Shown in pieces: positions 13,747 to 41,721 of a DNA stretch of 64,000 nt (its first letter is position 1; each line of letters opens with the position of its first letter). The notes beneath the pieces were generated by a model. The model saw nothing but the letters and a program-made list of their open reading frames with translations. It did no database searches and was not told the origin of the DNA. The stretch spans positions 62,001-126,000 of the forward strand of contig NZ_VNHJ01000009.1 in assembly GCF_008124525.1 (NCBI RefSeq), in the 5' to 3' direction. The position numbers and the translations under genes were made by a program. The DNA comes from Oceanicella actignis (GTDB lineage Bacteria > Pseudomonadota > Alphaproteobacteria > Rhodobacterales > Rhodobacteraceae).

Positions 13747-15717
13747 ATGAGTTCGTCCCTTCGCCGCAGCTGCGTCGCCGCATGCGTCATGGCCGCGCTG
13801 GCCGGCGCCTTGCCGGGCTGCGCGTGGCTTGGGGGCGATGCGGCGCCCGGGCTTGCGCCGGCCGCCGAGGCCTTCGAGGCGCCGCGCACCCAGGTGCGCT
13901 ACGAGGTCGAGCTGCGCGGCGCGCCGGACGACGATGTGGCCGCGCTGCTCGAGCAATCCCTGGCCCTCTACCGCTTTCAGGACGAGGGGGCGCAAAGCGT
14001 CGCCTTCCTGCGCCGCCGCGCCGAGCAGGACGCCGAGCTTGCGCGCAAGATCCTGCGCTCGCGCGGGTATTACGAGGGCAAGCTTGCCTTTCGCATCCTG
14101 CGCGGCGAGAAGGCCGCGTCCGGGGCCGCGCCCGCGCCGGCCGCCGATCCCTTCGCGCGCGAACCCGCCGCCCCGGCCGAGGCCGGCCCCGCGCACGAAG
14201 CCGCGCCACAGCCTGCGCCCGACGCGGCCGAGCGGGTGCGCGTGCGCCTGCGCGTGAAGCCCGGCCGCCCCTTCATCCTTGCCGAGCACCGTTTCGTCGT
14301 CGTCGATCATGGCCAGGGCGCCGCCCCCGTCCCGCCCGACGCGGCGGCGCTGGGCTCGCCCGTGGGGCGGCGCGCGTTGGCCGCGCGCATCCTGGGCGCC
14401 GAGCAGGCCGCCGTCGCCGCCCTGCGCCGCGACGGGCGCCCCTTCGCCCGCATCGAGGGCCGCCGCGCCGTCGCCGACATGCAGGCGGCCCGCCTCGAGG
14501 TCGAGACCATCCTTTCCGCCGGTCCCGAGCAGCGTTTCGGCCCCGTGCGCTTCGAGGGCCTGTCGCAGGTGCGCGAGGACTACCTGCTCAGCTACCTGCC
14601 CTGGCGCGAGGGCGAGCCGGTCGACGCCGACAAGCTGGCCGAGTTCCAGAAGCGCCTCGCATCGACGAACCTGTTCTCGACCGTGGTCGTGCGCCTGCCG
14701 GACGGACCGGCGCCGGACGGCGCCGCGCCGGTGATCGTTGCCGCCGAGGAAGGCCCCCCGCGCACGGTGGCGGCAGAGCTGAACCTGTCCACCGCCCGCG
14801 GCCCCGAGCTGGCGGCGTCGTTCGTCCACCGCAATCTGTGGGGCGCGAACGAGCGTCTGGGCGCCGAGCTCGATCTGGGCTTCGCGCTGCAGGCCCTGTC
14901 GGTCGAACTGCGCAAGCCGCAGTTCCGCCGCGCGGGGCAGGAGCTGGCGCTGGGCGCTTCGGCGCGGCACGAATCCGACGACGCCTTCGAGCAGTCGGCC
15001 CTGACGCTGACCGCCGGCGTCCAGCGCGCGCTCGACCCGAGTCTGACCGTGGGCTTGGGCGGGCTGGCCGAGGTCTCGGAGATCGACGACGGCGCCCGCC
15101 AGGAGGACGCCTTCCTGCTGGGCGCGCCCGCCTTCGCCCGCTACGAGGGGGCCGACGACCTGATCAATCCCACCCAGGGCTGGCGGGCCGAGCTCAAGGC
15201 CGCGCCCTTCGCGGGGCTGGTCGGCGGCCGCGCGGCGCCTTTCCTCGTGGCGGACGCGCGCGGGGCGGTCTACTTCCCGCTGGATGCGGGCGGGCGCACG
15301 GTGCTGGCGGCGCATGGGCGGGCGGCGGCGATCCTGTCGGAATCGCTGGGCGACGTGCCCGCCCCGCGCCGTCTTTACGCCGGGGGCGGGGGCTCGGTCC
15401 GCGGCTATCGCGAACGCTTCGTCGGGCCGCTCGATTCGGCGGGCGACCCGATCGGCGGACGCTCGGCGCTCGAGCTGGGCGCCGAGCTGCGCTGGCGCGT
15501 GCGCGGCGATCTGGGCGCGGCGGCCTTCGTCGACGCGGGTTCGGTCTCGACCAGCGTCTTTCCCGACTTCGCCGAGGGCGTGCAGCTCGCCGCCGGGCTT
15601 GGCGCGCGCTACTATTCGCCCGTGGGGCCGCTGCGCCTGGACGTGGCCGCGCCGCTGAACCCCCGGGACGCGGACGACGCGTTCCAGATCTATTTCTCGA
15701 TCGGGCAGGCGTTCTGA
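13747..15717 (+). CDS. tamA: Autotransporter/translocation assembly module outer-membrane protein TamA
   Basis: An Omp85-family barrel that works with TamB in inserting or supplying proteins or lipids to the outer membrane. The 656-residue product has an N-terminal signal sequence, POTRA domains (about 45-320) and a 16-strand barrel (about 330-656). The VRGY motif of the Omp85 loop L6 is present in GGGGSVRGYRERF near residue 555, and the C-terminal residue is Phe, the usual barrel end. The signal sequence contains LPGC at residues 22-25, which reads as a lipobox; see findings. The POTRA region carries an Ala/Pro-rich insertion near residues 122-160. Its stop overlaps the tamB start by one base (TGATG). 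The start follows GAGGAG. Confidence 0.93.
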   Translation: MSSSLRRSCVAACVMAALAGALPGCAWLGGDAAPGLAPAAEAFEAPRTQVRYEVELRGAPDDDVAALLEQSLALYRFQDEGAQSVAFLRRRAEQDAELARKILRSRGYYEGKLAFRILRGEKAASGAAPAPAADPFAREPAAPAEAGPAHEAAPQPAPDAAERVRVRLRVKPGRPFILAEHRFVVVDHGQGAAPVPPDAAALGSPVGRRALAARILGAEQAAVAALRRDGRPFARIEGRRAVADMQAARLEVETILSAGPEQRFGPVRFEGLSQVREDYLLSYLPWREGEPVDADKLAEFQKRLASTNLFSTVVVRLPDGPAPDGAAPVIVAAEEGPPRTVAAELNLSTARGPELAASFVHRNLWGANERLGAELDLGFALQALSVELRKPQFRRAGQELALGASARHESDDAFEQSALTLTAGVQRALDPSLTVGLGGLAEVSEIDDGARQEDAFLLGAPAFARYEGADDLINPTQGWRAELKAAPFAGLVGGRAAPFLVADARGAVYFPLDAGGRTVLAAHGRAAAILSESLGDVPAPRRLYAGGGGSVRGYRERFVGPLDSAGDPIGGRSALELGAELRWRVRGDLGAAAFVDAGSVSTSVFPDFAEGVQLAAGLGARYYSPVGPLRLDVAAPLNPRDADDAFQIYFSIGQAF

Positions 15718-18700: not shown

Positions 18701-19958
18701 GATCGAGGCCCGGGCCAGCTGGAAGGGGCGTCTTGGGGCGTTCTGGGGCTATGTGCCGGCTCCGGCGCATGTGCTGGACGGCGATCTGGACCTGGATCTG
18801 GGCGCCAAGGGACTGCCCGGGCGTCTGCGCCCGACGGGGCGGCTGGTCCTGACCAACGGCCAGTATCAGAACCTTGACCTGGGCACGATCCTGACCGGGA
18901 TCGAGGCGCGCACCCGTGTCGGCGACGGCGCGGATCTGACGCTGGACCTGCGCGCGACCGACGGCTCGGGCGCGCCGCTGAGCGCCAGCCTGACCGTGGA
19001 CGGCCAGACGCTGCGGGGGCGCCTGTCCGCCGACGGCGCGATCCTTGTGCGGCGCGACGACGTGACGGCGAAGGTCAGCCTTGACCTCACGGCGGCGGGG
19101 CCGTTGAGCGCGCCGCTGATCGCCGGCGAGGCGGTGATCGACCGCGCCGAGGTGCGGCTGGTCAACGCGCTGCCGCCTTCGGTGGCCGATCTGGGCGAAG
19201 TCGCGGTCAAGGGCGCGCCGCCGCCGGAAGAGGACGCGCCGCCGCCGGCAGACTCGGACGGCCCGCAGCTGGACCTGCGCGTGCGCGCGCCGGGCGGCGT
19301 GTTCGTGCGCGGGCGCGGGCTCGACAGCGAGTGGGAGGCCGATCTGAGCATCAAGGGCCCCGCCGCCGATCCCATCGTCGTCGGCGCCGTCGAGCGCCGC
19401 CGCGGCGAGCTGGACCTTCTGGGCAAGACCTTCGAGCTGACGCGCGGGCGCATCGCCTTTTCGGGCGCAAGGCCGCCCGACCCGGCGCTTGACGTCGCGC
19501 TTTGGACCGAGAGCGACGACATCGAGGGCGGGATCGTGGTTTCGGGAACCGCGTCGGCGCCGCAGGTGTCGTTCGCCTCGCGCCCGGCGCTGCCAGAGGA
19601 GGAGGTGATGCCGCGCCTTCTGTTCGGGACCTCGCGCCAGTCGCTGTCGGCCTCGCAGGCGCTGCAGCTGGCCACGGGGCTGGCGACGCTGCTCAACGGC
19701 GAGGCGGGGCTGCTCGACGGGGTGCGGGGGGCGCTGGGCGTGGACATGCTGAGCGTGGACCAGTCGGGCGAGGAAACCGCCGTGCGCGTGGGCAAGTCGC
19801 TGGCCGACGGGGTGTTCGTGGGCGCGCGCCAGCCGCTCGACGGCGGGCCGGCCTCTGTCGAGGTCGAGGTCGAGCTGTTCGACGGCGTCTCGGCCACCAG
19901 CGAGGCCGGCGGCGCGGGCGGCGCCTCGGTCGGGCTGCGCTGGAAGAAGGATTTCTGA
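15717..19958 (+). CDS. tamB: Translocation and assembly module subunit TamB (AsmA-like bridge protein)
   Basis: A long periplasm-spanning AsmA-like protein of 1413 residues, anchored in the inner membrane by an N-terminal hydrophobic segment (about residues 8-28), that pairs with TamA and is also linked to phospholipid transport. The body is repetitive beta-strand with many Ala/Gly/Leu/Asp repeats forming the expected groove. The C-terminal TamB/DUF490 domain (about residues 1060-1413) contains LNLPRL- and FELTRGRIAFSG-like signatures and ends in WKKDF with a terminal Phe. The start codon is within the tamA stop, so expression is coupled. Length is within the family's wide range. Confidence 0.93.
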   Translation: MTVSRLARLSRAALVGAALALAPPPPAGAQISILGLKNSLVQFALSQLSTPGSLEITAEGVAEPEDGVTELRGLAVADAQGVWLRAEAVGVSWSPSRLLSGELAIRALTARGVEVLRRPVLPPSEAPAKDEAPQESGGGWPRAPLTVVVDALTLSGVRLAPGVAAAQGVAFDAQGAARDEGDVQALELRIARTDAVEGVFDLRYARDFAADTLRVALDAREGPGGLAAEYAGLGAGAPSRLKLDADGPLSNWRMTAALDVERVLSAHGSALADLEAPVRLEADFVAAPGPDAPPEAQAALAPQAALGLRVAEGADGVIRIERARLAAPALDARAAGFYRRADRGLELDLSLEARRALAALVPGVDFARLGFDGRLSGAADDLTASGAATLEGLASDAVDAASARLDVTGRLRSQDGPQGELTLQGAATGVRLDRLTPDLIGPARLSLQAAYDGRRATVKAARFSSSLLEATASGVVALSEGAHDLTYALDAPDLAPIARAYGREAAGRLSAAGALGGAVGAARLTGEAVLSHAVAAGRSWGEARLTHDVTIAEGVAGRAALSARGGPIGPVDAQLRGALRGVRLTLDALSFEGLRSALEGRLDADLDARLAEGALRFEARDLSAFEAFADLFPQLAGAGLGGAVSGTLELSAPEGRQAATLRAQAQGARGFGAAIEAAELAGWARDLFGAPEGGLTAKAQGLRAGDAALSALDAGAELAQADGAAALTLHADAPDLRLAGAAARGLRLRARADDALGAAPRLEVSAGAGGAAMGAVRLGRLEARASGALDALDVRFDAEGDAPRRKKAGRRPLFARLAARLDLSGEAAAGTLTRLEAGLGKARARLRAPARIESAGGVTALRGLDLALPGGRLRGDLGAGAQGATGDVTLNLPRLVEAARLAGAPIEGGALRARARFDTRPGKPFARIRLNAEGLDPAGVEAEDALDAEARLDWDGGEATARASLSGRFGEPVRLRARARARPAGVLPALEPGAPIEARASWKGRLGAFWGYVPAPAHVLDGDLDLDLGAKGLPGRLRPTGRLVLTNGQYQNLDLGTILTGIEARTRVGDGADLTLDLRATDGSGAPLSASLTVDGQTLRGRLSADGAILVRRDDVTAKVSLDLTAAGPLSAPLIAGEAVIDRAEVRLVNALPPSVADLGEVAVKGAPPPEEDAPPPADSDGPQLDLRVRAPGGVFVRGRGLDSEWEADLSIKGPAADPIVVGAVERRRGELDLLGKTFELTRGRIAFSGARPPDPALDVALWTESDDIEGGIVVSGTASAPQVSFASRPALPEEEVMPRLLFGTSRQSLSASQALQLATGLATLLNGEAGLLDGVRGALGVDMLSVDQSGEETAVRVGKSLADGVFVGARQPLDGGPASVEVEVELFDGVSATSEAGGAGGASVGLRWKKDF

Positions 19959-19965
19959 GTCTGCA

Positions 19966-19995
19966 TTGACGGGATGCTAACCATTTTCCGCTAAG
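19966..19995 (+). promoter_or_regulatory. Putative promoter of the lysis cassette with CtrA-like half-site
   Basis: TTGACG (19966-19971) is a good -35. GCTAAG (19990-19995) lies 18 bases downstream where a -10 is expected. Between them CTAACCAT (19977-19984) matches the CtrA half-site TTAACCAT at seven of eight positions, and a second CTAA (19991-19994) follows. The motifs are visible; regulation by CtrA is inferred. Confidence 0.45.
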
Positions 19996-20088
19996 TCTCG
20001 AGGCGGGACTCGCGCAGGCCGTTCGGCCGCCGCCCGCCACGCGCCAGGCGTCGGCATCGGTCCTGCATGGATCGAGAGGTTGGCGGAC

Positions 20089-20952
20089 ATGAACGCTTTC
20101 AAGGGATCGGCCCTGCCGATCCGCACGGACGCGCCTTATCGGGCGTTGGCCGACGAGCTCGGCTGCGAGGTCGCGGCCATCAAGGCGGTGGCCGAGGTGG
20201 AAAGCCGCGGCGCGGCCTTTCTGCCCGACGGGCGGCCGACGATCCTGTTCGAACGGCATGTCTTTCGCCGCCTGACGGGCGGCGCCTTCGACGCCGCCGC
20301 GCCCGATCTTTCGGCGCCGGCGCCGGGGGGCTACGGGCCGGGCGGCGCGGCGCAATACGCGCGCCTCGAGCGCGCGACGGCGCTCGACCGCGAGGCGGCG
20401 CTGCGCGCGACCTCGTGGGGGCGCTTCCAGATCATGGGCTTCAACGCCGAGCTGGTGGGCTTTGCGGGCGTCGAGCCCTTCGTCGCCGCGATGTGCGAAA
20501 GCGAGGCGGCGCAGCTGGCCGCCTTCGGCGCCTATGTGCGCGCCGCGGGGCTGGCCGGCGCGCTGGCGCGGCGCGACTGGGCGGCCTTCGCGCGCGGCTA
20601 CAACGGCCCCGACTGGCGGCGCAACGCCTATGACCGCAAGCTGGCCGCGGCCTATGCCCGCCATGCCGGCGACGGGAGGGGCGAAGGGCCGAGCGACCGG
20701 GCGGCGGGCGCGTTTCGCGTGCGCGGGGTGCGCGAGCTGCAGGCCGCGCTGGATTACCTGGGCGCAGACCCCGGCCCCGCGGACGGGCTGATGGGCCCGC
20801 GCACCGCCGCCGCCATCCGCCGCTTCGAGCGCCAGTGCCGCCTGCCGCCCACGGGCGCGCCCGGCCCCGCCCTGATGGCCGCCGTGCAGGCGGTGTATTT
20901 CGCTCTGGGCGGACCGGAGCGCCCCGAAGCGGCCCTGCGCGGCGCCGCGTGA
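20089..20952 (+). CDS. Endolysin: N-acetylmuramidase with C-terminal peptidoglycan-binding domain
   Basis: A phage-type cell-wall hydrolase of 287 residues. The N-terminal N-acetylmuramidase domain (PF11860/DUF3380 type, about residues 15-185) contains AVAEVESRGAAFLPDGRP, with the likely catalytic Glu in AEVES near residue 35, followed by FERHVF and TSWGRFQIMGFN. A PG-binding-1 domain covers about residues 205-260 (RELQAALDYLG, DGLMGPRTAAAIRRF). There is no signal peptide, so export needs a holin, and the next gene encodes one. I prefer the ATG at 20089, which has GAGAGG at 9 bases, over the TTG at 20080, which has no spacing. The same pair, endolysin then holin, releases the Rhodobacter gene transfer agent from a locus separate from the capsid genes. 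Confidence 0.88.
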   Translation: MNAFKGSALPIRTDAPYRALADELGCEVAAIKAVAEVESRGAAFLPDGRPTILFERHVFRRLTGGAFDAAAPDLSAPAPGGYGPGGAAQYARLERATALDREAALRATSWGRFQIMGFNAELVGFAGVEPFVAAMCESEAAQLAAFGAYVRAAGLAGALARRDWAAFARGYNGPDWRRNAYDRKLAAAYARHAGDGRGEGPSDRAAGAFRVRGVRELQAALDYLGADPGPADGLMGPRTAAAIRRFERQCRLPPTGAPGPALMAAVQAVYFALGGPERPEAALRGAA

Positions 20953-20996
20953 CCTTGCCCGCCGCGGCGCCCCCTGCAAGCAGAAAGGACCCTTCC

Positions 20997-21623
20997 ATGC
21001 CCCTTGTTTCGCTGATCCTGCCCATTCTTTCCGCGGTGGCGCCTTCGCTGGTCAAGGCCGTGGCCGGCGACGACGAAAACGCGCAGGTCATCTCGCGCAC
21101 CGTGCGCGACGTGGTGGCCGAGGTGACCGGCGTCGCCGTCACCACCGCCGAAGAGCGCGACGAGGCCCTGCGCCGCATCCGCGAGGACGCCGAGCTGCGC
21201 GCCGAGCTCAAGCTGCGCCTGGCCGACATCGCCCTGCGCGAGACCGAGGCCCTGCTGGCCGACCGCGCCGATGCGCGCCGGCGCGACGTCGAGCTGACCC
21301 GCGTCACCGGCCGCGTCAACGACCGCGCCACCAACATGCTGATCGCCGCCTTCGCCGCGGTGGCGGTGATCACGGTGGCGCTGATCGTGCTGAACTTCTA
21401 CGTCTCGGCCGAGAACGACCGCTACATCGGCGCGGTGATCGGCTTCCTGACCGGGGTCGGGGGCATGTTCGCGCGCAACATCGGCACGGCGTTCGATTTC
21501 GAGTTCGGCTCGTCGCGCGGCTCGCAGATCAAGAGCAGCCAGATCGAGGCGCTGTCGGCGCAGATCGCGCGCGCGCCCGAGGCGCCGCTCGAGGCCTTCC
21601 GCCGGCGGCTGGCGGCCTACTGA
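20997..21623 (+). CDS. Three-TM holin of the gene-transfer-agent release family
   Basis: A 208-residue inner-membrane protein. Hydrophobic segments lie at about 3-23, 113-136 and 143-159. Between the first and second is a long, highly charged alpha-helical linker (about 25-108) rich in Arg, Glu and Ala and of coiled-coil character. The C-terminal 45 residues are soluble. This layout matches the GTA holin family (PF11351), whose founding member forms the membrane lesion through which the R. capsulatus endolysin reaches the wall. It lies 44 bases after the endolysin, with a GAAAGGA ribosome-binding site. It converges with the metallopeptidase gene, only 6 bases away. Confidence 0.82.
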   Translation: MPLVSLILPILSAVAPSLVKAVAGDDENAQVISRTVRDVVAEVTGVAVTTAEERDEALRRIREDAELRAELKLRLADIALRETEALLADRADARRRDVELTRVTGRVNDRATNMLIAAFAAVAVITVALIVLNFYVSAENDRYIGAVIGFLTGVGGMFARNIGTAFDFEFGSSRGSQIKSSQIEALSAQIARAPEAPLEAFRRRLAAY

Positions 21624-21629
21624 GCGCGG

Positions 21630-22049
21630 TCACTCCCACCAGCGGTCCACCTGGGCGATGTCCTCGTCGGACCAGCCCAGGTGGTGCGCGATCTCGTGCA
21701 CCAGCACATGCGTCACCAGCCGCCCCAGGGCCACGTCGCCGCGGGCGATCCATTCGTCGAGGATCGGGCGGCGGAAGAGGATGACCTCGTCGGGCAGGCG
21801 CACGGGATCGTCCACGCTGCGCTCGGTCAGCGGCACGCCGCGGTAGAGGCCGGTCAGCTCCCACGGGTCGTCCAGCCCGGTCTCGGCCAGCATGTCGTCG
21901 TCGGGCAGCTCCTCGACGCGGATGACCAGGCCCTCGCACGCGGCGCGCACGCCCTCGGGCAGGCGCGCGAAGGCCTCGCGGGCCATGCGGGCCAGGTCCT
22001 CGGCGTCCGGCGCGCGGGCGCCGGCCAGGCGCGGGCGGGTCAGGGCCAT
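21630..22049 (-). CDS. Small zincin-like metallopeptidase (DUF1025/PF06262 family)
   Basis: A 139-residue cytosolic protein with the zinc motif HEIAHH (HExxH) near residue 118, followed by a conserved acidic patch (SDEDIAQVD). The family is widespread, small and of unknown physiological substrate; it resembles a minimal zincin. The ATG at 22049 overlaps the 3' end of hemF by 10 bases, so it is the downstream partner of hemF. Function beyond predicted peptidase activity is not established. Confidence 0.85.
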   Translation of the reverse strand: MALTRPRLAGARAPDAEDLARMAREAFARLPEGVRAACEGLVIRVEELPDDDMLAETGLDDPWELTGLYRGVPLTERSVDDPVRLPDEVILFRRPILDEWIARGDVALGRLVTHVLVHEIAHHLGWSDEDIAQVDRWWE

Positions 22050-22957
22050 TTGGCGACGGGCGGCAGGCTCATGAGCACGGCGTCGGGGTTGTGCCCGGTC
22101 TCGAGCCCGAAGCGCGTGCCGCGGTCATAGACCAGGTTGAACTCGGCGTAGCGGCCGCGCTTGATCAGCTGCCATTCGCGCTCTTCCTCGGTCCAGGGCT
22201 CGCGCATGCGTTTGCGCGTCAGGGCCGGGAAGGCGTCGAGGAAGGCCTCGCCCACGTCGCGGGTGAAGGCGAAGTCGGCCTCCCAGTCGCCGGTGCACAG
22301 GTCGTCGTAGAAGATGCCGCCCACGCCGCGCGGCTCGTTGCGGTGGCGGATCATGAAATACTCGTCCGCCCAGGCCTTGAAGCGCGGGTAGTAGTCGGGA
22401 TCGTGCCGGTCGCAGGCGGCGCGCAGGCGCTGGTGGAAGAAGGCGGTGTCCTCGGGGACCTCGACCATGGGGTTGAGGTCGGCGCCGCCGCCGAACCACC
22501 AGGCCTGCGGGGTCCAGAACATGCGCGTGTTCATGTGAACCGCCGGCGTGCGCGGCGAGCGCATGTGCGCCACAAGGCTGATGCCGGCGGCCCAGAAGCG
22601 CGGGTCGCGGTCAAGGCCGGGAATGGACTTGCGCGCGGTCAGGCTGGCGCGGGCGCGTTCGGCCAGGCGTCCGTGAACCGCCGAGACGTTGACCCCGACC
22701 TTCTCGAACACGCGCCCGCCGCGCATCACGCTCATCACGCCGCCGCCCCCGTCGGCGCCGTCCTCGTCGCGGCGGAAGGTGGGGGTGCGTTCGAAGCGGC
22801 CGGGGGGCAGATGGGCGTGGGGGCCCTGGTCAAGCTCGTCCTCGATCGCCTCGAAGGCGGCGCAGATGCGGCCCTGCAGCTGCTCGAACCAGGCCTTCGC
22901 GCGCGCCTTGCGCGCCTCGAACTCGGGATCGGCGTCGGTGGGGGGCGTTTGCGTCAC
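22040..22957 (-). CDS. hemF: Oxygen-dependent coproporphyrinogen III oxidase
   Basis: Converts coproporphyrinogen III to protoporphyrinogen IX with O2 in haem and bacteriochlorophyll synthesis. The 305-residue length matches E. coli HemF (299). Conserved stretches are visible: GGVMSVMRGGRVFEKVGVN, HMNTRMF, WWFGGGADLNPM, RGVGGIFYDDL and the C-terminal YNLVYDRGTRFGLETG-type segment (FNLVYDRGTRFGL). The GTG start at 22957 has an ideal AAGGAG site 7 bases upstream. An in-frame ATG at 23014 would add 19 non-conserved residues and has no such site. The gene lies 67 bases downstream of the Nudix gene on the same strand. Confidence 0.96.
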   Translation of the reverse strand: MTQTPPTDADPEFEARKARAKAWFEQLQGRICAAFEAIEDELDQGPHAHLPPGRFERTPTFRRDEDGADGGGGVMSVMRGGRVFEKVGVNVSAVHGRLAERARASLTARKSIPGLDRDPRFWAAGISLVAHMRSPRTPAVHMNTRMFWTPQAWWFGGGADLNPMVEVPEDTAFFHQRLRAACDRHDPDYYPRFKAWADEYFMIRHRNEPRGVGGIFYDDLCTGDWEADFAFTRDVGEAFLDAFPALTRKRMREPWTEEEREWQLIKRGRYAEFNLVYDRGTRFGLETGHNPDAVLMSLPPVAKWP

Positions 22958-37435: not shown

Positions 37436-39868
37436 ATGAAGTTCACCCTATCCTGGCTCAAGGACCACCTGGAAACCGAGGCGAGCCTCGACGAGATCGC
37501 CGACGCGCTGACCGATCTCGGGCTCGAGGTCGAGGGGATCGAGGACCCCGCCAGGACGCTGGGCGCCTTCACCATCTGCCGCGTCATCGAGGCGGTCAAG
37601 CACCCCAACGCCGACAAGCTGAAGCTGTGCCGCGTCGAGGCCTGGCCCGACGGTCCCGACAAGCCCTCGCAAGAGGTGCAGGTGGTGTGCGGCGCGCCCA
37701 ACGCGCGCACCGGGCTGATCGGGGTGTTCGCGGCGCCCGGCACGCATGTGCCCGGCACGGGGGTGGATCTCAAGCCCGGGGTGATCCGCGGGGTCGAGTC
37801 GAACGGGATGCTGTGCTCGGAGCGCGAGCTGATGATCTCGGACGACCATGACGGCATCATCGACCTGCCGCAGGACGCTCCGCTGGGCGCGCGCTACATC
37901 GATTACGCCGGGCTGAACGATCCGGTCATCGAGATCGCCGTCACCCCCAACCGCCCCGACGCGCTGGGCGTGCGCGGGATCGCGCGCGATCTGGCGGCGC
38001 GCGGGCTGGGGCGGCTGCGGCCGGCGCCGACGCAGCCGGTTCCCGGCGCCTTCCCCAGCCCGATCGGCGTCTCGATCGACCCCGAGGCGCGCGAGGGCTG
38101 CCCGCATTTCGTCGGCCGCGTCATCCGCGGCGTGCGCAACGGGCCCTCGCCGCAATGGCTGCAGCGCCGGCTGCGGGCGATCGGGCTGCGGCCCATCTCG
38201 GCGCTGGTCGACGTGACCAACTACCTGACCTTCGACCGCGCCCGGCCGCTGCACGTGTTCGACGCGGCCAAGGTGCGGGGCGATCTGCGCGTGCATCTGG
38301 CGACGGGAGTCGAGCGCCTGACCGCCCTTGACGAGAAGGAATACCAGCTGCCGCCCGGCGCGCTGACCATCTCGGACGAGGCCGGGCCCGAAAGCATCGG
38401 CGGCATCATGGGCGGCGCCGCCACCGGCTGCGACGAGAACACGGTGGACGTGTTCCTCGAATCCGCCTGGTGGCGGCCCTCGGACATCGCCGCGACGGGG
38501 CGCAAGCTGCGCATCAATTCCGACGCGCGCTATCGCTTCGAGCGCGGCGTGGACCCCGCCTTCACCCGCGAGGGGCTCGAGCTGGCCACGCGCATGATCC
38601 TCGATCTGTGCGGCGGCGAGGCGTCCGAGGTGGTCGAGGCCGGCGCGCCGCGGATCGAGCGGCGCAGCTACCGCCTCGATCCGGCGCGCTGCGTCTCGCT
38701 GGTGGGCATGGACGTGCCCGAGGCCGAGCAGCGGCGCATCCTGTCCGATCTGGGCTTCGAGATCCGCGACGAGGACGGCGCGATCATGGTCTCGCCCCCC
38801 AGCTGGCGGCCCGACGTGCTGGGCGAGGCCGACCTGGTCGAGGAGGTGGCCCGCGTCGCCTCGCTCTCGCGCCTGCCCGCGCGCCCGCTGCCGCGGCCCG
38901 AGCCGGGCGTGCCCGCGCCGCGCCTGACCCCGATGCAGAAGCGCGCCGCGCGCACCCGCCGCAGCCTGGCCGCGCAGGGCTTCCACGAATGCGTGACCTA
39001 CTCGTTCATCTCCGAGCGCGACGCGCGGCTGTTCGGCGGCGGCGGCGACGAGATGCGCCTTCAGAACCCGATCAGCTCCGAGATGAGCCACATGCGCCCC
39101 TCGCTGCTGCCGGGCCTTCTGGCGGCGGCGGCGCGCAACCAGGCGCGCGGCTTCGCCGATCTGGCGCTGTTCGAGCTGGGGCCGGTCTTCGACGGCCCCG
39201 AGCCGGGGCAGGAGCGCCTGGTCGCCGCCGCCGTGCTGACCGGGGCGGCGGCGCCGCGGCACTGGGCCGTGCCGCGCCGTCCCGTCGACGCCTGGGACGC
39301 CCGCGCCGCCGCCGAGGCGGCGCTGGCCGCCGCCGGCGCGCCGGTCGATCGGCTGACGACCCTGCCGACCGCGCCCGCCTGGTTCCACCCGGGCCGTTCG
39401 GCCACGCTGGCGCTGGGGCCCAAGAACCCGCTGGCCGTGTTCGGCGAGCTGCACCCGCGCGTCGTCGAGGCCATGGGCCTGAAGGGCCGGGCCATGGGCA
39501 TGAGCGTCGACCTTCAGGCCATCCCCTTCCCCAAGGCGCGCGGCACGGCGCGCCCGCCGCTTCAGGCATCGGACCTGCAGGCGGTCGAGCGCGACTTCGC
39601 CTTCGTGGTCGCCGCCGACGTGCCGGCCGAGCAGCTGTTGCGCGCGGCGCGCGGCGCGGACAAGGCGCTGATCGAGTCGGCGTCGGTGTTCGACGTCTTC
39701 GACGGCCCCCGCGCCGCCGAGGCGCTGGGCGAGGGGCGCAAGTCCATCGCGCTGACCGTCCGCCTTCAGCCGCGCGAGCGCACCTTGACGGATGAAGAGA
39801 TCGAGGCCGTCTCGGCGCGCATCGTCGCCGCCGTGCGCAAGGCCACGGGGGGCGAGCTGCGCGCCTGA
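37436..39868 (+). CDS. pheT: Phenylalanyl-tRNA synthetase beta subunit
   Basis: Second subunit of phenylalanyl-tRNA synthetase, with editing of Tyr-tRNA-Phe. 810 residues, close to the family norm of about 800. Order: N-terminal domain with [16 protein letters not shown], tRNA-binding (EMAP-like) domain (about 40-155), B3/4 editing domain (about 215-385), B5 domain (about 410-480), catalytic-like core (about 490-700) and the C-terminal ferredoxin-fold anticodon-binding domain (about 715-810, [25 protein letters not shown]). No anomalies seen. Confidence 0.97.
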
Positions 39869-39887
39869 GCGCGGCCGCCCCCGCTTG

Positions 39888-39912
39888 CGCCGCGCCCCGC
39901 CCGGGCGCGGCG
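39888..39912 (+). terminator. Hairpin terminator after pheT
   Basis: Perfect 10-pair stem CGCCGCGCCC / GGGCGCGGCG with loop CGCCC, starting 19 bases after the pheT stop. There is no T-tract, so termination may depend on Rho or the hairpin may mainly stabilise the 3' end. Confidence 0.45.
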
Positions 39913-39992
39913 TCACGCATTCGCCCCATTTGGCGGTCATTCATGTCCGCCTCAGGCGCGCCGCGCCGCCGCAACGCCGTCAGGAGGGGCAC

Positions 39993-40424
39993 ATGCTGAA
40001 GGAATTCAAGGAATTCGCCGTCAAGGGCAACGTCGTGGACATGGGCGTCGGCATCGTGATCGGCGCCGCCTTCACCTCGATCGTCAAGAGCTTCGTCGAG
40101 GACATCGTCAATCCCTTCATCGGGCTGTTCACCGGCGGGATCGATTTCTCGAACCTGTTCATCAACATCTCGGGGCAGGAGGTGGCGTCGCTGGCCGAGG
40201 CGCGCGAGAAGGGGCTGGCGGTCATCGCCTATGGCTCGTTCCTCAACGCGGTGGTCAGCTTTCTGATCGTCGCCTGGGTGCTGTTCCTGGTGGTCAAGGG
40301 GGTCAACACGCTCAAGCGCCGCGTCGCGGCCGAGGAAGAGGCCGCCCCCGCCGCGCCGCCCAAGCCCTCGCGCGAAGAGCAGCTTCTGGAAGAGATCCGC
40401 GACCTTCTGGCCCGCAAGGCCTGA
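39993..40424 (+). CDS. mscL: Large-conductance mechanosensitive channel MscL
   Basis: Homopentameric inner-membrane channel that opens under hypo-osmotic shock. 143 residues. The N-terminal amphipathic helix [13 protein letters not shown] is followed by TM1 (about 14-44, [18 protein letters not shown]), a periplasmic loop, TM2 (about 78-105, [21 protein letters not shown]) and a cytoplasmic charged helical bundle ending [10 protein letters not shown]. The acidic/proline linker [13 protein letters not shown] before the bundle is usual. The start has an excellent CAGGAGGGG site. Confidence 0.97.
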
Positions 40425-40532
40425 TCGCCGGCGCATGGCGCGTGCGGGCGCAGGGTCCGCGCCCGCCGCATTCGGCCACGCGCCCGCCGCATCCGGTCAC
40501 GGGCCGGCCGCCCGGGCCCGCCCGTCGGCTTT

Positions 40533-40574
40533 GTCCCGCCGGCCCGGTCCCGCCGGCCCGGTCCCGCCGGCCCC
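40533..40574. repeat. Three tandem 14-base units in the mscL-ald convergent gap
   Basis: GTCCCGCCGGCCCG at 40533-40546 and 40547-40560, then GTCCCGCCGGCCCC at 40561-40574. The last unit is the left arm of the ald terminator hairpin. Confidence 0.85.
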
Positions 40575-40596
40575 GGCCGCGCGCGGCCGGCGGGAC
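40561..40596 (-). terminator. Terminator of ald (minus strand), also facing mscL
   Basis: GTCCCGCCGGCC (40561-40572) and GGCCGGCGGGAC (40585-40596) form a perfect 12-pair stem with a self-complementary loop, beginning 6 bases beyond the ald stop. The position between converging genes suits a bidirectional terminator. Confidence 0.65.
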
Positions 40597-40602
40597 GAGG
40601 CG

Positions 40603-41721
40603 TCACAGGTCGAGCGCCTCGCGCGGGTCGATGGCCTCGAGCCCCTGCGCCTCGGCCACGGGGCGCGAGGTCAGCTTGCCCGCATGCACGTTCAGGCCGT
40701 TCAGCAGGTGGGGGTCGTCCTGGCAGGCCTTGCGCCAGCCCTTGTCGGCCAGCGCCAGCATGAAGGGCAGCGTGGCGTTGCCCAGCGCGATGGTCGAGGT
40801 GCGCGGCGTGGCGCCGGGCATGTTGGCCACGCAGTAATGCACGATGCCGTCCACGATGTAGATCGGATCGTCATGCGTGGTGGGGCGCGAGGTCTCGAAG
40901 CACCCGCCCTGGTCGATGGCCACGTCCACGATCGCGGCGCCGGGCTTCATCTCGGCCAGCTGCGCGCGCGACACCAGCTTGGGCGCGGCGGCGCCGGGCA
41001 CCAGCACCGCGCCGATGACCATGTCGGCCTGGGCGACCAGCTCTTCGGTCGCCGCGCGCGAGGCGTAGCGGGTGACGAAATGGCCGCGGAAGGCCTCGTC
41101 CAGATGGCGCAGCCGCGGGATCGAGCGGTCCAGCACGGTGACCTGCGCGCCCATGCCCGCCGCCACCCGCGCGGCGTTGGTCCCCACCACGCCGCCGCCG
41201 ATGACGACCACCTGCGCGGGGCTCACGCCCGGCACGCCGCCCAGCAGAACGCCGCGCCCGCCATTGGCCTTCTGCAGCGCCCATGCGCCCATCTGCGGCG
41301 CGAGGCGCCCGGCGACCTCGGACATGGGGGCCAGCAGGGGCAGGCCGCCATGATCGTCGGTGACGGTCTCGTAGGCGATGGCGGTCACGCCGCTGGCCAT
41401 GAGGTCGCGGGTCTGCTCGGGGTCGGGGGCGAGGTGCAGATAGGTGAACAGGACCTGGCCCTTGCGCAGCATGCGCCGCTCGGCGGGCTGGGGCTCCTTG
41501 ACCTTCACGATCATCTCGGCCTCGGCGAAGACCGAGGCGGCGTCGGGAAGGATGCGCGCGCCCGCCTCGACATAGTCCTGGTCGGCGAAGCCGGCGCCGC
41601 GGCCGGCGCCGGTCTCGATCAGCACCTCGTGGCCATGGGCGACGGCCTCGCGCGCGGCGGCGGGGGTGACGCCGACCCGGTGCTCCTGATTCTTGATTTC
41701 GCGTGGGCAACCGATCTTCAT
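40603..41721 (-). CDS. ald: Alanine dehydrogenase
   Basis: NAD-dependent reversible oxidative deamination of L-alanine to pyruvate and ammonia. The 372-residue length is exactly typical. Catalytic Lys75 (VKVKEP) and His96 (FTYLHLAP) are present, and the Rossmann fold [22 protein letters not shown] begins near residue 167. Asp270-equivalent is in [11 protein letters not shown]. It is divergent from an Lrp/AsnC regulator across 135 bases containing paired inverted repeats, the classic AldR arrangement, so alanine-dependent activation is likely. The downstream hairpin ends the transcript. Confidence 0.97.

Follow-up and report, generated by a model that had tools for sequence, protein, structure and literature searches.

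We asked what a phage-type pair of genes, one for an endolysin and one for a holin-like membrane protein, does among the housekeeping genes of the Oceanicella actignis chromosome, and whether it could release gene transfer agent (GTA) particles, which resemble viruses and move bacterial DNA from cell to cell. The stretch of DNA that we analysed, here called the window, is 64,000 nucleotides long and corresponds to contig C9:62001-126000 of a 3.28 Mb genome that is 99.9% complete.

A muramidase and a holin-like protein behind tamB

Both genes lie on the plus strand of the window. The endolysin gene (20089-20952) encodes 287 amino acids and is followed, after exactly 44 bases (20953-20996), by the gene for the holin-like protein (20997-21623), which encodes 208 amino acids. 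An earlier reading of the same DNA, made from the sequence only, had described this order and spacing correctly; position 19966, however, at which its cassette begins, falls into untranslated sequence. The most likely start codon is the ATG at 20089, with an in-frame TTG at 20080. Upstream of the pair there is an intergenic region of 130 bases (19959-20088, plus strand) without a clear promoter or a TTAAC half-site, preceded by tamA (13789-15717) and tamB (ending at 19958), which are encoded on the plus strand and recognized by Omp85 and TamB matches. Downstream, on the minus strand, follow a zincin metallopeptidase gene (21630-22049; PF06262, E 3e-35) and the core gene hemF (22040-22957; PF01218, E 4e-95). 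Together with a NUDIX gene and other core genes these make up the flanks of the pair, among which neither a phage gene nor a tRNA was seen. The claim that the two genes stand alone in the core genome thus holds, and the pair is flanked by housekeeping genes where a prophage or a prophage remnant would have adjoining phage genes.

The first gene encodes an N-acetylmuramidase, as predicted. Its PF11860 domain (residues 27-192, E 5e-62) covers positions 1-174 of the 175 positions of the Pfam profile, and a PG_binding_1 domain is found at the C-terminus (residues 213-265, E 1e-13; Pfam). The protein also matches the endolysin family phrog_1224 (E 4e-83) and the solved endolysin structures 7q4s, 5nm7 and 7rum, and it is the only PF11860 protein of the O. 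actignis genome. PADLOC and NCBIfam searches returned nothing specific for the pair. One of the matching structures, 5nm7, is AP3gp15 of Burkholderia phage AP3, a DUF3380/PF11860 enzyme which has the same catalytic domain with a single catalytic glutamate. Replacing this residue, Glu101, by alanine costs AP3gp15 99.4% of its muralytic activity (PMC5674055). Its counterpart in the window endolysin is Glu38 (codon 20200-20202, plus strand), the presumed catalytic glutamate, which is invariant across 16 aligned PF11860 proteins of chromosomal and phage origin. The context of Glu38, AVAEVESRG, matches AVNEVESKG around Glu101, which we took from the mutagenesis primer printed in PMC5674055. Both proteins have a peptidoglycan-binding domain, but it is C-terminal in the window endolysin and N-terminal in AP3gp15. 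Moreover, unlike PF11860 phage endolysins such as AP3gp15, the window endolysin is chromosomal and has no other phage genes around it. Finally, inspection of its N-terminus (MNAFKGSALPIRTDAP...) by eye shows no hydrophobic segment resembling a signal peptide. The muramidase would therefore presumably need a holin to reach the cell wall.

The second gene starts with the ATG at 20997, behind a ribosome-binding site (AGAAAGGA) in the 44-base gap, and stops at 21623. Its product matches phrog_1544 (E 6e-14), a family for which no function is listed. The sequence-only reading had assigned it to PF11351. We rejected this assignment: the protein does not match PF11351, and comparison of its family with 27 PF11351 proteins gave a profile probability of 0.9%. 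The same reading had called the protein a holin with three transmembrane segments and a charged linker. The charged helical linker is indeed found at residues 65-104, but the number of three segments is an approximation, as there is one strong segment at about 111-134, a weaker one at about 138-170 and a hydrophobic N-terminal helix (residues 1-23) that may either span the membrane or lie on it. The protein also contains a conserved AFDFEFGSSRGS motif. A structure model (pLDDT 81, 20 sequences) consists of a hydrophobic N-terminal helix, the long charged helix at 65-104 and two C-terminal helices of membrane-crossing length. Searching a viral structure library with this model revealed no similar fold at E 0.001, and a tblastn search of phage records for close relatives of the protein gave none.

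We therefore looked at the gene neighbourhoods of the family, which was gathered from genomes and from 41 relatives on IMG/VR contigs. In phages and prophages an endolysin gene lies directly upstream of the phrog_1544 gene (second upstream in L127-like contigs). The kinds of endolysin found there are GH24 (L005, L108), amidase (L107), phrog_465 (L110, L113), phrog_315 (L111, L116, L117), phrog_873 (L133, L139 and others) and the GH19-like phrog_181 (L126, L132, L145 and also L127); at some contigs (L115, L118 and the ParB-neighbour group L120-L125) the endolysin neighbour is absent. A family that is found next to at least five unrelated endolysin families is best read as a holin, and from such gene contexts a holin role for the phrog_1544-type partner is well supported. 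The window protein thus shares with the phage phrog_1544 membrane proteins the profile family and the position after an endolysin. It differs from them, which are listed as being of unknown function, in that it is located outside any phage and is paired with a PF11860 enzyme. As a side observation, L120-L125 and L115 (the same phage as L008) encode short phrog_1544-type proteins of 96-106 amino acids that lack the N-terminal half, and in L120-L125 the short gene is found behind a ParB-like gene and not behind an endolysin gene.

The same two genes are found in the same order after tamA-tamB in Albimonas donghaensis (L004). Between the window and Albimonas the endolysins are 68% and the holins 50% identical, compared to 45% for both TamA and TamB, and the dN/dS of the endolysin is about 0.33 (NG86), a value that is rough due to the high dS. 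The GC3 of the two window genes, 0.906 and 0.952, is host-like (host mean 0.934). The strong domain matches, the conserved order and place in Albimonas and the dN/dS of the endolysin together exclude a chance arrangement. The two genes are likely to form a working lysis pair of the phage type.

The GTA cluster and the canonical lysis genes

The presence of a GTA in the host, which the sequence-only reading had predicted, was confirmed by the genome search. An intact RcGTA-type cluster with terminase, portal, protease and capsid genes, g6-g15 and a GTA_TIM gene is located at C11:73626-88400, flanked by cysE and mltG/fabF, and thus on another contig than the lysis pair on C9. Albimonas (L241) and the genera G048 (L098), G050 and G040 also have this cluster, between identical flanking genes. 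G083 and G101 have it as well, in a segment that does not include cysE, G004 has GTA genes g2-g11 and the TIM gene, and G008 has pieces only, at contig ends. However, since a GTA marker occurs in 104 of the 120 sampled genera of the family (about 87%), the presence of a GTA is a weak test of the cassette. The genome contains a second GTA_TIM gene (C1:301054), which is part of a Mu-like prophage (C1:297758-321983; L010, L011) with a PF06074 portal, a PF03864 capsid and GTA-like tail genes g12-g15. At about C1:307794-309170 this prophage encodes a PF00959 lysozyme of its own (E 3e-26), accompanied by two small predicted proteins.

Rhodobacter capsulatus releases its GTA with the endolysin rcc00555 and the holin rcc00556, which are encoded away from the cluster (PMC3423380; PMC6854486). 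To place the window pair we surveyed 120 genera of the family with one genome each, the window genome included. Going by the family names, we take rcc00555 and rcc00556 to be members of PF05838 (GH108) and PF11351, respectively. PF05838 is present in 103 and PF11351 in 102 of the 120 genera, where their genes are usually neighbours, and both are missing in 15. The window genome is one of these 15: the models that score in 103 and 102 genera find neither family anywhere in it. In G050 the canonical pair is located between ccmE and ccmF, beside argC (L104:5195-11667), and its PF05838 protein is the NCBIfam family NF040573, 'holin-associated N-acetylmuramidase' (E 7e-103). In the window genome, Albimonas and G048 the gap between ccmE and ccmF contains no lysis gene but other genes, which in the window genome are two unrelated ones (L240). 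Albimonas gave no canonical hit with one joined argC-murI-holin-GH108-capsid query, which may have missed weak hits, so the absence of the canonical pair is less certain there than in the survey genomes searched with family models.

Like the RcGTA lysis pair, the window pair consists of neighbouring endolysin and holin-like genes that are separate from the capsid cluster, and the RcGTA-type cluster of the genome is intact. Moreover, both membrane proteins have a hydrophobic part at the N-terminus, then a linker, and membrane helices at the C-terminus. The endolysin, in contrast, belongs to PF11860 and not to PF05838, the partner is not a PF11351 protein, and the pair is found behind tamB, whereas that of G050 is located between ccmE and ccmF, with argC nearby. 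It is not of the RcGTA lysis gene families. The earlier label of a GTA-style cassette therefore fails at the level of the family, since in relatives it is PF05838 (NF040573), and not PF11860, that pairs with PF11351. The window pair may nevertheless work like the RcGTA lysis pair.

The promoter regions differ as well. In 17 of 22 canonical pairs, across many genera, the start is preceded by a TTAAC half-site at about -46 to -68 (L033-L062, upstream of the GH108 gene), in agreement with published CtrA half-sites of rcc00555/6 (PMC9638019). No such half-site is found upstream of the pair in the window, in Albimonas or in G048. A promoter of the CtrA/GafA type shared with the canonical pairs seemed suggestive by a first score and was dropped, since among 72 upstream regions taken from this genome the cassette ranks only 19th. 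The missing half-site and the lack of a canonical-like signal compared to these 72 controls suggest that the pair is either wired differently or not a GTA gene.

Distribution of PF11860 genes across the family

PF11860 is found in seven of the 120 genera. Among the 15 genera without canonical genes, seven have a GTA marker and eight do not. Five of the former contain PF11860 (the window genome, G004, G008, G048 and G083), but none of the latter, and in the 105 genera with a canonical gene it occurs only twice: in G050, which carries both PF11860 and the canonical pair, and in G092, where the gene lies beside phage genes at a contig end. Fisher's test, uncorrected for kinship, gives p = 2e-6 when the seven marker-bearing genera without canonical genes are compared to all other genera, and p = 0.007 when the comparison is limited to the 15. 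On the rpoB tree most of the GTA genera that lack canonical genes branch early, with G048 in addition inside the crown, which amounts to about four changes; the independent pairs, three to five in number, all point the same way but are too few to reach significance. The muramidases fall into at least three separate groups, which argues against a single inherited coincidence. Albimonas, which is outside the 120-genus count, fits the pattern with a GTA cluster, the pair and no canonical hit in the joined-query search. Conversely, the single-contig genome of G101 has a complete GTA cluster (L102, C1:653000-672500) and none of PF05838, PF11351 and PF11860. A GTA genome can thus lack both lysis systems.

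A muramidase gene together with a holin-like gene is found only in the window genome, Albimonas and G048. In G048 the PF11860 gene and its phrog_1544-like partner are flanked by an amylase-type gene on one side and the ATP synthase operon on the other (L025), with no phage genes around them. This genus is nested among canonical genera, and its muramidase groups with that of phage Danklef and not with the window muramidase, suggesting a separate recruitment. The muramidase genes of G004, G008 and G083 have no neighbour related to the window holin-like protein, the one of G008 being located at a contig end.

Some PF11860 genes are solitary. G048 has a second, solo copy (L026:9217-10035) among copper/cytochrome-type genes, which is sister to the cassette copy and has a dN/dS of about 0.19. 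Orthologous solo genes are found near pheT in G004 (L031:8106-9542), G050 (L032:9195-10363) and G083 (L030:8963-9829), in the first two directly downstream of mscL; their role may differ from that of the pair. The window has pheT-mscL-ald at 37436-41721, without a muramidase gene there.

What the pair may release

The best single explanation for these observations is that the pair releases the GTA in place of the missing canonical pair, although we give it no better than an even chance. A phage-derived pair would then have been domesticated in the chromosome. The holin-like protein would accumulate in the inner membrane and open it at a set time. This would give the apparently leaderless muramidase access to the cell wall, which it would cut, causing the cell to burst. 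The particle released would most likely be the RcGTA-type one encoded on the other contig, and the pair would stand in for the GH108 lysozyme and the PF11351 holin on which most of the family relies and which are absent here. Pore formation in the membrane, lysis and the link to GTA release are thus what we infer from the two genes and their distribution. Unrelated phage lysis genes may, in other words, have replaced the standard GTA release module. A broader version of this idea is more tentative and in our view somewhat short of an even chance: GTA release could be a plug-in function, for which lineages with an intact RcGTA-type cluster but without GH108/PF11351 would several times independently have recruited unrelated PF11860-based phage lysis genes, joined by a phrog_1544-type holin in this lineage and in G048.

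Alternatively, the domesticated pair could serve another use, either programmed lysis of a subpopulation that sets free DNA, vesicles or enzymes, or a holin-dependent export resembling type 10 secretion. We consider this unlikely, but it is the strongest of the competing readings. It would account for a pair that is conserved and intact in two genera and whose promoter lacks the canonical GTA lysis signature, and the solo PF11860 genes near mscL or pheT of related genera suggest that the enzyme alone may have roles in the cell wall. However, the neighbours of the pair are tamB, the zincin gene and hemF, with no adjoining cargo enzyme, spanin or toxin gene, and the setting varies by lineage (tamB in two genera, the atp operon in G048). 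Another use also leaves unexplained why PF11860 tracks GTA genomes without canonical genes. It is less probable still that the two genes are functionless lysis leftovers of an old prophage. Both belong to phage families and no other phage gene is left nearby, yet neither reading frame is broken at this shared site in two genera whose TamA and TamB proteins differ by 55%, conservation of the endolysin exceeds that of its neighbours, with the dN/dS given above, and the GC3 of the pair is that of the host. Finally, the pair might act in trans for a prophage in the same cell. The Mu-like prophage on C1, with a portal of the Mu type, a phage capsid and tail genes like those of GTAs, would be a candidate, but it brings its own lysozyme. 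This is the least probable reading.

If the pair does release the GTA, the lysis module would be exchangeable while the particle genes stay. This would bear on whether selection maintains GTAs, since a decaying prophage would hardly be expected to keep its particle while acquiring the means of lysis anew. It would also provide a function for the phage family phrog_1544, which has none listed. The exit of GTAs from the cell has been explained for R. capsulatus, by a holin and an endolysin, and, since 2026, for Caulobacter crescentus, by LypABC (PMC13236601). The CARD-NLR-like LypABC releases a related GTA in a way that, like the one proposed for the window pair, is lineage-specific, not of the RcGTA kind and encoded outside the capsid cluster. 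In contrast to the window pair, it is not a holin-endolysin system, and the two share no genes. The idea can be directly tested in Albimonas donghaensis, for which a type strain is available. As a further observation from the survey, the genome of G054 has a GH108 gene about 3 kb from a GTA_TIM gene (C34:16893-21043), so that in this genus the lysozyme gene may be part of the GTA cluster or adjoin it.
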